Of a DNA stretch of 64,000 nucleotides, positions 2,504 to 54,092 are shown in pieces; positions within the stretch are counted from its first letter, which is position 1; every line of letters starts with the position of its first letter. Both the position numbers and the translations under genes were made by a program. Location of the stretch: assembly GCF_000718985.1 (NCBI RefSeq), contig NZ_JODL01000006.1, positions 134,444 to 198,443 on the forward strand, given 5' to 3'. Under the pieces are notes generated by a model that saw only the letters and a program-made list of their open reading frames with translations, was not told the origin of the DNA and did no database searches. Source of the stretch: Streptomyces megasporus. GTDB lineage: Bacteria; Actinomycetota; Actinomycetes; Streptomycetales; Streptomycetaceae.

Positions 2504-3133
2504 GTGACCACACCCGACATCGGAGGCGCCACCGGAGGCGGAGCCGACGTCACCGTCGGAGTCCTCGCCCTCCAGGGCGACGTGCGGGAGCACCTCGCCG
2601 CGCTGACCGCGGCCGGCGCCGAGGCCCGTCCGGTCCGCCGCCCCGAGGAACTCGCCGAGGCCGACGGCCTGGTGATCCCCGGCGGGGAGTCCACCACCAT
2701 CTCCAAACTGGCCACGGCCTTCGGACTGCTGGAGCCACTGCGCGAGCGGGTCCGCTCGGGCATGCCCGCCTACGGCTCCTGCGCGGGCATGATCATGCTC
2801 GCCGACAAGATCCTCGATCCCAGGGCCGGCCAGGAGACCATCGGCGGCATCGACATGATCGTGCGCCGCAACGCCTTCGGACGGCAGAACGAGTCCTTCG
2901 AGGCGGCCGTGGAGGTGGCGGGCGTCGAGGGCGGCCCGGTCGAGGGCGTCTTCATCCGCGCCCCCTGGGTGGAGTCCACGGGCGCGGAGGTGGAGGAGTT
3001 GGCGGTCGTCGACGGCCGTGCCGTCGCCGTGCGCCAGGGGCGGCTGCTGGCCACCGCCTTCCACCCCGAACTCACCGGCGACCACCGGGTGCACCGGCTC
3101 TTCGTCGACATGGTGCGCGCATCGGTGATGTGA
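2504..3133 (+). CDS. pdxT: Pyridoxal 5'-phosphate synthase glutaminase subunit PdxT
   Basis: This 209-residue class I glutamine amidotransferase hydrolyses glutamine and channels ammonia to PdxS. The nucleophile elbow '[10 protein letters not shown]' carries the catalytic cysteine, '[10 protein letters not shown]' is the oxyanion region and '[11 protein letters not shown]' supplies the His/Glu pair. The GTG start overlaps nothing and follows GGAACGAGGTGACC at Shine-Dalgarno spacing. Length and motifs are normal for the family. It lies between pdxS and yebC, the standard actinobacterial order. Confidence 0.96.
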
Positions 3134-3202
3134 GGGCGATGTGAGATCGACGGTAGGATCGACGCGTTGATTTCCTGTTGGTGACATCGAAGGAGCGAGG
3201 GC

Positions 3203-3955
3203 GTGGCCGGCCACTCCAAGTGGGCAACCACCAAGCACAAGAAGGCCGTGATCGATGCCAAGCGCGGCAAGCTCTTCGCCAAGCTGATCAAGAACATCGA
3301 GGTCGCGGCCCGGATGGGGGGTCCCGATCCCGAGGGGAACCCCACGCTGTACGACGCCATCCAGAAGGCGAAGAAGAGCTCGGTCCCCAATAACAACATC
3401 GACCGCGCGGTCAAGCGCGGCGCAGGTCTGGAGGCGGGCGGCGCCGACTACCAGACGATCATGTACGAGGGGTACGGCCCCAACGGCGTCGCACTCCTGA
3501 TCGAGTGCCTCACCGACAACCGGAACCGCGCCGCCTCCGACGTGCGCGTCGCCATGACCCGCAACGGCGGCTCCATGGCCGACCCCGGCTCGGTGTCGTA
3601 CCTGTTCAACCGCAAGGGCATCGTCATCGTGCCCAAGAACGACCTGACCGAGGACGACGTGCTGGCCGCCGTCCTGGACGCGGGCGCCGAGGAGGTCAAC
3701 GACCTCGGCGAGAACTTCGAGGTCGTCAGCGAGCCCGGCGACCTCGTCGCGGTGCGCACCGCCCTGCAGGACGCGGGCATCGACTACGACTCGGCGGACG
3801 CCAACTTCGTCCCCACCATGCAGGTGGAGCTGGACGAGGAGGGCGCGCGCAAGGTCTTCAAGCTGATCGACGCCCTGGAGGACAGCGACGACGTGCAGAA
3901 CGTCTTCGCCAACTTCGACGTGTCCGACGAGGTCATGGCGAAGGTCGACGCCTGA
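3203..3955 (+). CDS. yebC: YebC/PmpR/TACO1-family protein
   Basis: The protein has 250 residues and the diagnostic start '[15 protein letters not shown]'. YebC-family proteins were first described as transcriptional regulators. More recent work shows members acting on ribosomes to relieve stalling at proline-rich stretches. The GTG start is preceded by AAGGAGCGAGG, a strong ribosome binding site. A -10-like TAGGAT (3155-3160) in the preceding gap could give it its own promoter. It sits directly before ruvCAB, the commonest context for yebC in bacteria. Confidence 0.95.
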
Positions 3956-51544: not shown

Positions 51545-52477
51545 ATGAGGCTCGTCTTCGCCGGCACCCCCGAGGTGGCCGTCCCCGCCCTCGACGCCCT
51601 GATCGCGTCGGAGAGGCACGAGGTCGTGGCCGTCGTCACCCGGCCCGACGCGCCGGCCGGGCGCGGCCGGCGCGTGGTGGCCTCCCCGGTGGCCCAGCGG
51701 GCCGAGGAGGCCGGCATCGAGGTCCTCAAGCCCGCCCGCCCCCGCGACGAGGACTTCCTCGCCCGGCTGCGCGAGATCGCCCCGGACTGCTGCCCGGTCG
51801 TCGCCTACGGCGCGCTGCTGCCCAAGGTCGCCCTCGACGTCCCGGCCAAGGGCTGGGTCAACCTGCACTTCTCGCTGCTGCCCGCCTGGCGCGGCGCGGC
51901 CCCCGTCCAGCACGCGATCATGGCCGGGGACGAGGTCACCGGCGCCTCCACCTTCCTGATCGAGGAGGGGCTCGACTCCGGGCCGGTCTACGGGGTGGTC
52001 ACCGAGGAGATCCGGCCCACCGACACCAGCGGGGACCTGCTGACCCGGCTCGCCTTCGCCGGCGCCGGGCTGCTGGCCGCCACCATGGACGGGATCGAGG
52101 ACGGCACGCTGCGGGCCGTCCCCCAGCCCGAGGAGGGCGTCAGCCTCGCCCCCAAGATCACGGTCGAGGACGCCCGCGTCGACTGGTCAGCCCCCGCGCT
52201 GCGCGTGGACCGGGTGGTGCGCGGCTGCTCGCCGGCGCCCGGCGCCTGGACCCTCTTCCGCGGCGAGCGGCTCAAGCTGCGACAGGTCGCCCTCGCGCCC
52301 GACCGCACCGACCCGGCCCCCGGCGAGTTGGTCGTCGGCAAGAACACCGTGCACGTGGGGACGGGCTCGCACGCGGTCGAGCTGCTGTGGGTCCAACCGC
52401 AGGGCAAGAAGCCGATGTCCGCCGCCGACTGGGCGCGCGGGGTGCGCATCGCGGCCGGGGAGCGGCTGGAGGATTGA
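51545..52477 (+). CDS. fmt: Methionyl-tRNA formyltransferase
   Basis: Fmt formylates initiator Met-tRNA using 10-formyl-THF. The 310-residue protein has '[20 protein letters not shown]', the catalytic Asn/His in '[18 protein letters not shown]', the catalytic Asp in '[10 protein letters not shown]' and the C-terminal OB-like tRNA-binding domain. The ORF is intact, but a transposon-type hairpin begins only a few bases after its stop codon. Transcription into rsmB, its usual next gene, is therefore interrupted by an IS element. Confidence 0.96.
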
Positions 52478-52481
52478 AGGC

Positions 52482-52503
52482 TCCCCCGCCTGAAGGCGGG
52501 GGA
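52482..52503 (-). repeat. Right-end hairpin of the IS element
   Basis: A perfect 10-bp stem-loop with GA (plus strand) or TC (minus strand) at the tip begins four bases after the fmt stop codon. It matches the tip sequence of the left-end hairpin. Confidence 0.8.
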
Positions 52504-52610
52504 TTCCCGCCCGACCTGCGGCCGGACGCCCCCTGACGGGGGCACCTTCGGGCGTGCGCGGGGATTCATGGCTCAGGCCGCCTCCGGGAGCGGCGCTCCC
52601 GGAGGACTTC
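52482..52610 (-). ncRNA. Predicted omega-RNA (reRNA) scaffold at the tnpB 3' end
   Basis: On the minus strand, running out of tnpB toward fmt, three consecutive hairpins occur: 52605-52581 (11-bp perfect stem, inside the last codons of tnpB), 52543-52528 (6 bp, GTCA loop) and 52503-52482 (right-end hairpin). TnpB omega-RNAs overlap the tnpB 3' end and finish at the right end, and use flanking DNA as guide. The guide here would be antisense to the 3' end of fmt. Hairpins are seen; the omega-RNA role and its 5' limit are inferred. Confidence 0.5.
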
Positions 52611-53802
52611 CACCCTCGGCACCATCCGGGTTCCAACCCGCCCGGACAACCATCACCTTCGCGCTGTTCTTGTCCCGCGGTGTCACGGTTTTGCACGCGG
52701 TGCAGGTGTAGGTGCGCTCACCCAGCGGCATGCGGTGCTTGGCTCTCGCCCCGCAGTGCGCGCAGTCCATCGTGGTGTGCGCGGGATGTACGAGCCGGAC
52801 GGTGCGTCCGTGCTTGCGGCCCATCTCGATCAGGGCCGCCTTGGTGGCAAAGATGGCTCCGTCCGCGGCCTTCTTGGCCATGGTGGTCTTGGCGAGGAAC
52901 TTCGGGCGGAAGTCCTCGACCGCAATCCGGTCGTGGTCCCGGTTGACGGCCTTGGCCCACTTGCGGCCGGTGTCCTGCCGCTGTCGGGCGACCTTCTTGT
53001 GCAGCCTCACCACCTGGCGCTTCGCGGCCTGGTAGCCCTTGGAACCGGGCTTGCCCTTCGGGGGCTTCCGGCGGGCCATCATCCGCTGGTACTTCGCGAG
53101 CTTCTGCGCGGCCGTCCTCCCGTGCTGCGGGTGGGGCAGGTCGTGCGCGTCGCTCGTGGTGGTCGCGGTCTCCTTCACGCCCCAGTCCACGCCGATCACA
53201 CGCCCGGTCTCCGGCAGCGGTTCGACCCGGGCCGGGACGACGAACGAGGCATACCAGTGCCCCAGGGAGTCCTGGTACACGCGCACCGACGACGGTGCGG
53301 CGGGCAGGTCCCGCGACCACACGACGGTCAGGGCGATCCCGCCGGCCAGATGCAGCTTCCCTTCCTTGAGGCGGAAGCCGCGCTTGGTGTAGTTCAGGCT
53401 TGGCCGGGCGTCGCGCTTCTTCTTCCACGTCGGCATCCCGGCTCGCTGCCGCATCGGCAGGCGTTCCTTGATGTCTTTCTGCGCCTTGGCGCGGGACTTG
53501 CCGAAGTCGCGGATGATCTGCTGCTGCGGAACCGAGGCTCCCTCGGCCAGCCATGGCGTGCGCTTGCGGGCCTCGGTCAACATCTTGTCAAGCCGAGCCG
53601 GGCCGCAGGTTCGCTTGTCGGTTCTCTCCGGACGGGTCTTGTTCCACTGGTGGATTTGCTGGGACTTGGCCACGCACTCGTTCCAGACCCAGCGGCAGCG
53701 GTCCCACTCGCCGGTCAGCGCTTTGAGTGCGGTGGGCGACACGCGAAGCCGGAAAGTCCACCGGGCATGCCCGGCGTCCCCGGTTTCCTTTGGTGTCACC
53801 AT
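52573..53802 (-). CDS. tnpB: RNA-guided endonuclease TnpB (IS200/IS605 OrfB)
   Basis: TnpB is the RuvC-like, omega-RNA-guided nuclease of IS200/IS605 elements, ancestral to Cas12. The 409 residues include the N-terminal OrfB HTH ('RVSPTALKALTGEWDRCRWVWN', in parts) and a complete RuvC triad: D206 ('GVDWGVKETAT'), E296 ('IAVEDFRPKFLA') and D377 ('PRDKNSAKV'). The zinc ribbon cysteines are C347, C350, C367 and C370. All key residues are intact, so it is probably active. The ATG lies six bases after TATTAT on the minus strand, with no ribosome binding site, so the mRNA is likely leaderless. The 3' end overlaps the predicted omega-RNA. Confidence 0.93.
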   Translation of the reverse strand: MVTPKETGDAGHARWTFRLRVSPTALKALTGEWDRCRWVWNECVAKSQQIHQWNKTRPERTDKRTCGPARLDKMLTEARKRTPWLAEGASVPQQQIIRDFGKSRAKAQKDIKERLPMRQRAGMPTWKKKRDARPSLNYTKRGFRLKEGKLHLAGGIALTVVWSRDLPAAPSSVRVYQDSLGHWYASFVVPARVEPLPETGRVIGVDWGVKETATTTSDAHDLPHPQHGRTAAQKLAKYQRMMARRKPPKGKPGSKGYQAAKRQVVRLHKKVARQRQDTGRKWAKAVNRDHDRIAVEDFRPKFLAKTTMAKKAADGAIFATKAALIEMGRKHGRTVRLVHPAHTTMDCAHCGARAKHRMPLGERTYTCTACKTVTPRDKNSAKVMVVRAGWNPDGAEGGSPPGAPLPEAA

Positions 53803-53839
53803 GCGCTCATAATAGCACCATGATCAATGAGGTGCGCAT
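53801..53839. promoter_or_regulatory. Shared divergent promoter of tnpB and the RHH gene, with inverted repeat
   Basis: The tnpB and RHH start codons are separated by 17 bp (53803-53819). CATAAT (53808-53813, plus) and TATTAT (53814-53809, minus) are overlapping -10 hexamers, each six bases from its own start codon. ATGCGCTCAT (53801-53810) and ATGAGGTGCGCAT (53827-53839) form an inverted repeat with a 2-nt insertion around the site. No -35 is obvious for either direction. Confidence 0.65.
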
Positions 53840-54035
53840 GACCCTCCGTCTCCCCGAAGACCTCCGCGACCGGTTGCGCGATCACGCGAAGTCCGAGCGG
53901 CGGTCCCTCAACTCCGAGCTGGTGTACGTGCTCGAGGTCGGCCTCCGCGCCATGGGAGTGGACGCCGAATCACCCGGCGGCGATTCGGCTGCCCCTGCCC
54001 CGCTACGGGGGAAGCTGGATTCCTCCCCGGCCTGA
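53820..54035 (+). CDS. Arc/MetJ-type ribbon-helix-helix protein encoded by the IS element
   Basis: The 71-residue protein has the RHH pattern: strand 'VRMTLRLPEDL', helix 'RDRLRDHAKSERR', turn 'SLN' and helix 'SELVYVLEVGLRAMG', then a disordered Ser/Pro tail. Such proteins bind DNA as dimers, often at their own promoter. It is divergent from tnpB across a shared promoter and its stop codon lies in the left-end hairpin, so it is an integral part of the element. A repressor of tnpB and of itself is the simplest role, but this is inference. No toxin gene is present. ATG 53838 is an alternative start. Confidence 0.82.
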   Translation: MINEVRMTLRLPEDLRDRLRDHAKSERRSLNSELVYVLEVGLRAMGVDAESPGGDSAAPAPLRGKLDSSPA

Positions 54036-54044
54036 AGGCCGAGG
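54025..54044 (-). repeat. Left-end hairpin of the IS element
   Basis: CCCCGGCCT-GA-AGGCCGAGG pairs over nine positions with one C-A mismatch (G-U on the minus strand). The RHH stop codon TGA (54033-54035) forms its tip. Confidence 0.75.
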
Positions 54045-54092
54045 CATCCTCCGGTTCATCCGGTGACCGCCGGGGGCGGCCGACCGGCGACG

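Follow-up and report, generated by a model that had tools for sequence, protein, structure and literature searches.

A ribbon-helix-helix gene divergent from tnpB in a Streptomyces insertion sequence is a candidate regulator of nuclease dosage

Insertion sequences of the IS200/IS605 group usually carry tnpA and/or tnpB only. Among the systems that restrain a nuclease, restriction-modification systems use C proteins, which belong to the helix-turn-helix type and serve as activators as well as repressors. The closest precedent for the locus described here comes from type V-K CRISPR-associated transposons (CASTs), where Arc-like ribbon-helix-helix (RHH) proteins of 53-72 aa (Arc_1/Arc_2) are encoded upstream of cas12k in reverse orientation (PMC9938897). 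The Arc genes are reported to be associated with cas12k, while the demonstrated repression of cas12k is that of CvkR, a MerR-type regulator (PMC9938897). TnpB itself is described as favouring retention of its element by cutting element-free copies (PMC11870625), and a TnpB of another lineage is described as cutting its guide RNA from the tnpB mRNA (PMC10278001).

We analysed a stretch of 64,000 nucleotides from Streptomyces megasporus (contig NZ_JODL01000006.1, positions 134,444 to 198,443; hereafter the window), which contains an element of two genes only, a tnpB and a small RHH gene (Table 1). A small RHH gene divergent from the effector gene is common to this element and the V-K CASTs. There, as described, the effector is Cas12k within a cyanobacterial Tn7-like transposon, whereas the present one is a stand-alone TnpB from an actinobacterial insertion sequence of two genes, which lacks the Tn7-like transposition genes and the CRISPR array. 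The likeness is one of layout, Arc_1/Arc_2 being compared with the window RHH through their published description. In its RuvC residues, zinc ribbon, subterminal hairpins, TCAC-type flank and want of a Y1 transposase the element resembles the tnpB-only IS1341 type, but it differs by having an RHH gene as well, divergent from tnpB and placed between it and the left end. Like a C protein, a small regulator carried by the element would keep a dangerous nuclease in check; the regulator here, however, is an RHH protein, and a helix-turn-helix C-protein domain was not found in it. The repressors Arc, Mnt and AmrZ share its fold and a conserved RS-[LI]-NSE motif, yet none of the three has its gene next to that of an RNA-guided nuclease in an insertion sequence. 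A search of open-licence PMC full texts, with matches judged mostly by title and start of abstract, returned no description of an RHH-tnpB pair.

Table 1. Coordinates of the element, its genes and its candidate control sites in the window
Feature	Position	Strand	Remarks
Whole IS200/IS605-type element	52474..54062	-	1,589 bp; ends conserved over many copies; on the tnpB strand, left end 54062 and right end 52474
Target/TAM TCAC (GTGA on + strand)	54063..54066	-	GGTGA invariant at left ends
Left-end hairpin CTCCCCGGCCTGAAGGCCGAGG	54023..54044	.	from the sequence; same hairpin in other copies
Right-end hairpin	52483..52502	.	from the sequence and the right ends of other copies
Right end TTGA	52474..52477		TCAA on tnpB strand; conserved in other copies
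tnpB, RNA-guided endonuclease	52573..53802	-	409 aa, one open frame; NCBIfam guided_TnpB NF040570, E 1.1e-67
Presumed omega-RNA scaffold	52474..52640	-	3' end of tnpB transcript; fold z-score -3.1; placed by analogy
Presumed guide segment	52454..52473	-	complementary to fmt 3' end; placed from the right end and the general TnpB layout
Candidate shared divergent promoter/operator region	53792..53819	.	TANNNT-N6-ATG for tnpB; half-site test
Candidate half-site GGTGTC	53792-53797		within tnpB codons 2-4; intact in window
Putative shared -10 region	53808-53814		between the two start codons
Candidate weak second half-site AGCACC	53814-53819		degenerate; paired 22 bp apart by eye
RHH gene, Arc-type DNA-binding protein (predicted)	53820..54035	+	71 aa; PF03869 above Pfam cut-off

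The element lies at the stop codon of fmt, with fmt and rsmB as its neighbours. A preliminary description of this DNA had recognised it as a unit at 52482..54044; the element is real, and the ends conserved in other copies lie slightly further out on both sides. With these ends, hairpins are found at both termini, TCAC at one flank only and no target duplication. The conserved ends also imply that the element entered at a GTGA containing the fmt stop codon. Joining 52473 to 54063 yields a reconstructed empty site that reads GAG CGG CTG GAG GAG TGA, and in the present arrangement the right-end TTGA would give fmt a new TGA stop. No element lies in the fmt-rsmB gap of any of the 18 readable relatives (16 of the same genus and two of the same order), but these gaps are too diverged to provide an exact empty site, so that the element ends rest on conservation among copies. 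TCAC is the known TAM of AmaTnpB (PMC10278001), and the window TnpB may use it likewise. Neither the element nor the draft genome of the window (195 contigs) contained a Y1 transposase TnpA (PF01797, E 0.001), and a search for carriage of the element by phages gave no match.

Gene ends frequently coincide in part with the target GTGA. Of 67 right-end flanks, 18 hold a coding frame that stops exactly at the TGA of the right-end TTGA, so that the right end gives the neighbouring gene its stop codon; the control count is 16 of 393 GTGA sites of the window. At many left ends (e.g., L171, L184 and L194) a GGAGG that resembles a ribosome-binding site for the next gene lies about 6 nt ahead of the GTG of the target GTGA. 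A coding frame begins at this GTG in 24 of 59 cases and at 110 of 393 control sites, the latter including in-frame internal GTGs.

The preliminary description had called the TnpB intact, and this holds: the catalytic residues D206, E296 and D377 are all present, the last four cysteines (C347, C350, C367 and C370) form the zinc ribbon, and the family model matches strongly (Table 1). The protein also matches the ISDra2 TnpB structures 8h1j and 8bf8. As features of a putative RNA-guided cleavage activity, the element has these catalytic residues and a stable fold at its right end. Searches at the element ends returned no Rfam family at or near its gathering score. A second, partial tnpB match is found in the same genome on contig 10 (L002, 1501-1641), covering residues 363-409 with 87% identity.

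The RHH gene runs divergently from tnpB, the two start codons being 17 bp apart, and its stop codon (54033-54035) falls within the left-end hairpin, just as the preliminary description had stated. This overlap, together with the wide recurrence beside tnpB given below, makes the gene a part of the element and bears out the earlier view that it is not a flanking host gene. The protein scores 34.3 bits against the Arc model PF03869 (cut-off 20.4), Arc/RHH were the only DNA-binding families in a Pfam scan, and a profile of its family matches AmrZ (5.7e-08), Mnt (1.9e-07) and Arc. Its predicted structure (mean pLDDT 79.7; helices 13-25 and 30-44) was built on an alignment without L196, which contains a stop, and six other rows, and with three rows added. 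The closest fold found by Foldseek is DNA-bound AmrZ (probability 1.00, E 0.046), no match reaching E ≤0.001. The RHH protein is predicted to bind DNA. The gene is under purifying selection: over 114 stop-free RHH cores of 31 codons, cores with stops being excluded, the median dN/dS is 0.30 (quartiles 0.22-0.41; 4,939 pairs of moderate synonymous divergence that are not independent), and the window RHH compared with that of L039 gives 0.05.

The RHH alignment, its rows taken from genes already known beside tnpB, then served as the sole query of a genome collection, and the best 80 of 113 relatives were kept, some of which repeat loci of the first set. At 66 of these best 80 loci a divergent tnpB, truncated in a few, has its 5' end near the RHH start; the pairing, found here by the RHH alone, therefore exceeds chance and recurs widely. 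The other 14 comprise three with truncated tnpB, three at a contig edge and eight without a tnpB match, in one of which (L187) a short piece of tnpB can be made out by eye. A further set of 28 RHH loci (L251-L278) has the divergent tnpB in 25. The 66 pairs come from Streptomyces as well as Acrocarpospora, Streptacidiphilus, Nonomuraea, Planomonospora, Nocardiopsis, Kitasatospora, Actinomadura and Wenjunlia, and on a plasmid of Thermobispora bispora the pair is annotated as a transposase and an Arc family DNA-binding protein, 14 bp apart. The association extends to TnpBs only 25-29% identical to that of the window, and recurrence beside such different TnpBs rules out a host flanking gene. Of 199 genomes of the genus, 36 have an RHH homologue and 69 a member of the tnpB clade (E 1e-60 or better). 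A general actinobacterial link between RHH and tnpB was rejected: none of the 17 weaker RHH matches outside the genus, which came from a phylum sample of 296 genomes, had a tnpB within 1.5 kb.

From the side of tnpB the RHH gene is a common optional module and not a fixed part of the element, as it is missing from 61 of 96 related tnpB copies, some of which have a similar left end; it is intact in 24 and was scored as decayed in 11. The decay label is backed by nhmmer at E below 0.01 in seven of the 11 and was given by eye in L066, L078, L083 and L112. The co-occurrence that the preliminary description proposed to test stands as a wide recurrence of the pair, but not as a constant one within the clade. 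Copies without the RHH gene that share the left end, which had been named there as evidence against the idea, were found in part: in L053, L084, L091 and L114 the same kind of left end lies directly upstream of tnpB. On a tree of 103 TnpBs (RHH intact in 31, labelled decayed in 11, none in 61), in which seven of the 31 are the TnpBs of 25-29% identity found through their RHH, the intact-RHH label changes at least 14 times, with four changes forced by well supported branches. All the D/E/D residues are found in 30 of 31 rows with an intact RHH, in 11 of 11 labelled decayed and in 59 of 61 without RHH; gaps account for the three exceptions. Confinement of the RHH to nuclease-dead TnpBs is thereby ruled out, and TnpB does not need the RHH, since the 61 copies without it have intact nuclease residues. 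A large RHH-less TnpB group (L036, L037, L045, L052 and kin) has a conserved block with GACCRTACGTACGACA upstream of tnpB.

The frequent absence or decay of the RHH beside an intact tnpB would suit a passenger, captured once, without effect on tnpB and kept for its own autoregulation or a host target, and five Streptomyces records indeed keep an RHH gene that has no tnpB beside it and overlaps an NAD synthase-like gene downstream. We consider this unlikely, as the RHH is always divergent, at the same end and with its start close to that of tnpB across very different TnpBs, and as candidate half-sites are placed at the start codon of tnpB and none of the nine decayed copies tested has both of them complete (see below).

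The two halves of the element appear to have separate histories. RHH cores up to 84% identical adjoin TnpBs that are 31% identical (L008 and L024), and for this reason the RHH/left-end half behaves like a module exchanged between TnpB lineages, as judged by these sequence comparisons; one TnpB comparison excluded copies with under 250 aligned residues. The window element is itself a mosaic at the level of DNA identity, its RHH half being closest to L039 (81-91%, versus 68-82% to L033) and the 3' half of its tnpB to L033 (mostly 79-95%, versus 51-90% to L039). Such exchange also bears on a direct inhibition of the TnpB protein by the RHH, with DNA binding secondary. Many RHH proteins are antitoxins, and a small gene beside a nuclease gene has the look of one. 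Near-identical RHHs beside TnpBs of 31% identity nevertheless argue against a specific protein contact, and many RHH homologues stop about 52 residues in, right after the fold and without the C-terminal arm, so that we regard inhibition by contact as very improbable.

A role in transposition would account for a gene that travels with the left end: the RHH could bind the ends or single-stranded intermediates and help a Y1 transposase in trans. The RHH frame runs into the left end, the two move together even between TnpB lineages, and mobility would need a helper in a genome in which no Y1 transposase was found. The odds against this role nonetheless appear rather long, given that the candidate sites lie at the tnpB start and not at the element ends, and that some copies have such a left end but no RHH.

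The region between the two genes contains these candidate sites. The distance from a TANNNT to the tnpB start is exactly 6 nt in 19 of the 34 rows that bear an RHH, in 7 of the 9 decayed and in 11 of the 65 without RHH, with seven divergent copies in the wrong register scored as misses; any other spacing from 2 to 13 occurs at most twice in RHH-bearing rows, and RHH-less rows have 10 at spacing 7. The predicted tnpB promoter is thus leaderless in layout, and a search of 53650-53950 found no sigma-70 consensus promoter. Half-sites GGTGTC/GACACC occur in the 6 nt before the tnpB start and in codons 2-4, 11 bp apart, inverted in some copies and as direct repeats in several others. The upstream half-site is present in 17 of the 26 copies that bear an RHH, 3 of the 64 without it and 1 of the 9 decayed, and both are complete in 11 of 26, 0 of 64 and 0 of 9, respectively, in an exploratory count whose motif was chosen post hoc from the same, related copies and from which the seven divergent copies were left out. 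These counts suggest that presence of the candidate operator at the start of tnpB is associated with an intact RHH.

The symmetry of the site is less uniform. At the tnpB start the 32 copies that bear an RHH average 3.00 of 6 for symmetry, the 9 decayed ones 3.44 and the 64 without RHH 1.61, divergent copies in the wrong register included. Swapping right arms among 45 distinct 17-mers gave 3.22 versus 3.05 of 6 (p = 0.085), which does not support strict covariation of the arms or an inverted operator throughout the family, direct-repeat forms being present. An anchored dyad test on 24 of the 33 intact copies gave p = 0.002, with individual dyads below 0.05 in five of the 24, the window not among them. 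Like the count above, these symmetry tests are exploratory, the motif having been taken from the copies tested. The window's own candidate site is poor (local register 2 of 6; dyad p = 0.44): its half-site within codons 2-4 is intact, but that ahead of the start codon is not. Inverted repeats lie between the starts in divergent copies, with arms of 11 bp in L120.

With a probability of roughly two in three, we read the element as a divergent tnpB-RHH cassette in which the RHH is an autorepressor on the shared promoter that keeps nuclease and guide RNA low. The RHH would bind the half-sites around the tnpB start codon and block transcription in both directions. A single operator could set nuclease and guide together, given that a TnpB of another lineage makes its guide from its own mRNA. 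Repression would limit self-targeting damage or toxicity, and the TnpB left under it may still suffice to cut the empty donor site; the repressor could thereby let retention by TnpB cutting work at low cost. The preliminary description had offered silencing until the element moves alongside dosage control, and standing autorepression of dosage fits the anatomy better. The recurrent candidate regulator gene makes the question of how IS-borne RNA-guided nucleases spare their hosts directly testable in laboratory Streptomyces, where natural siblings with an intact, a decayed or no RHH can serve as controls. The pair is a simple counterpart of the Arc-cas12k layout in CRISPR-associated transposons, and the candidate half-sites could serve the control of TnpB tools.

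A wider reading, which we put forward tentatively and hold to be more doubtful than probable, is that stand-alone IS nucleases possess a dosage switch of their own, in the form of an exchangeable cassette of RHH and left end; its operator would lie across the leaderless tnpB start and set nuclease and guide RNA at once. The Cas12k layout would then be an inherited or repeatedly reinvented taming of TnpB-derived effectors, and RHHs orphaned by loss of tnpB would have been taken over as host regulators. The five Streptomyces records with an RHH but without tnpB (L224 and L227-L230) carry it at one shared place, near 2950-3250. There, the gene is preceded by a perfect 17-bp palindrome, GATGCCACCGTGGCATC, and its stop overlaps the start of the downstream NAD synthase-like gene; it is possible that this RHH now acts as a host regulator.
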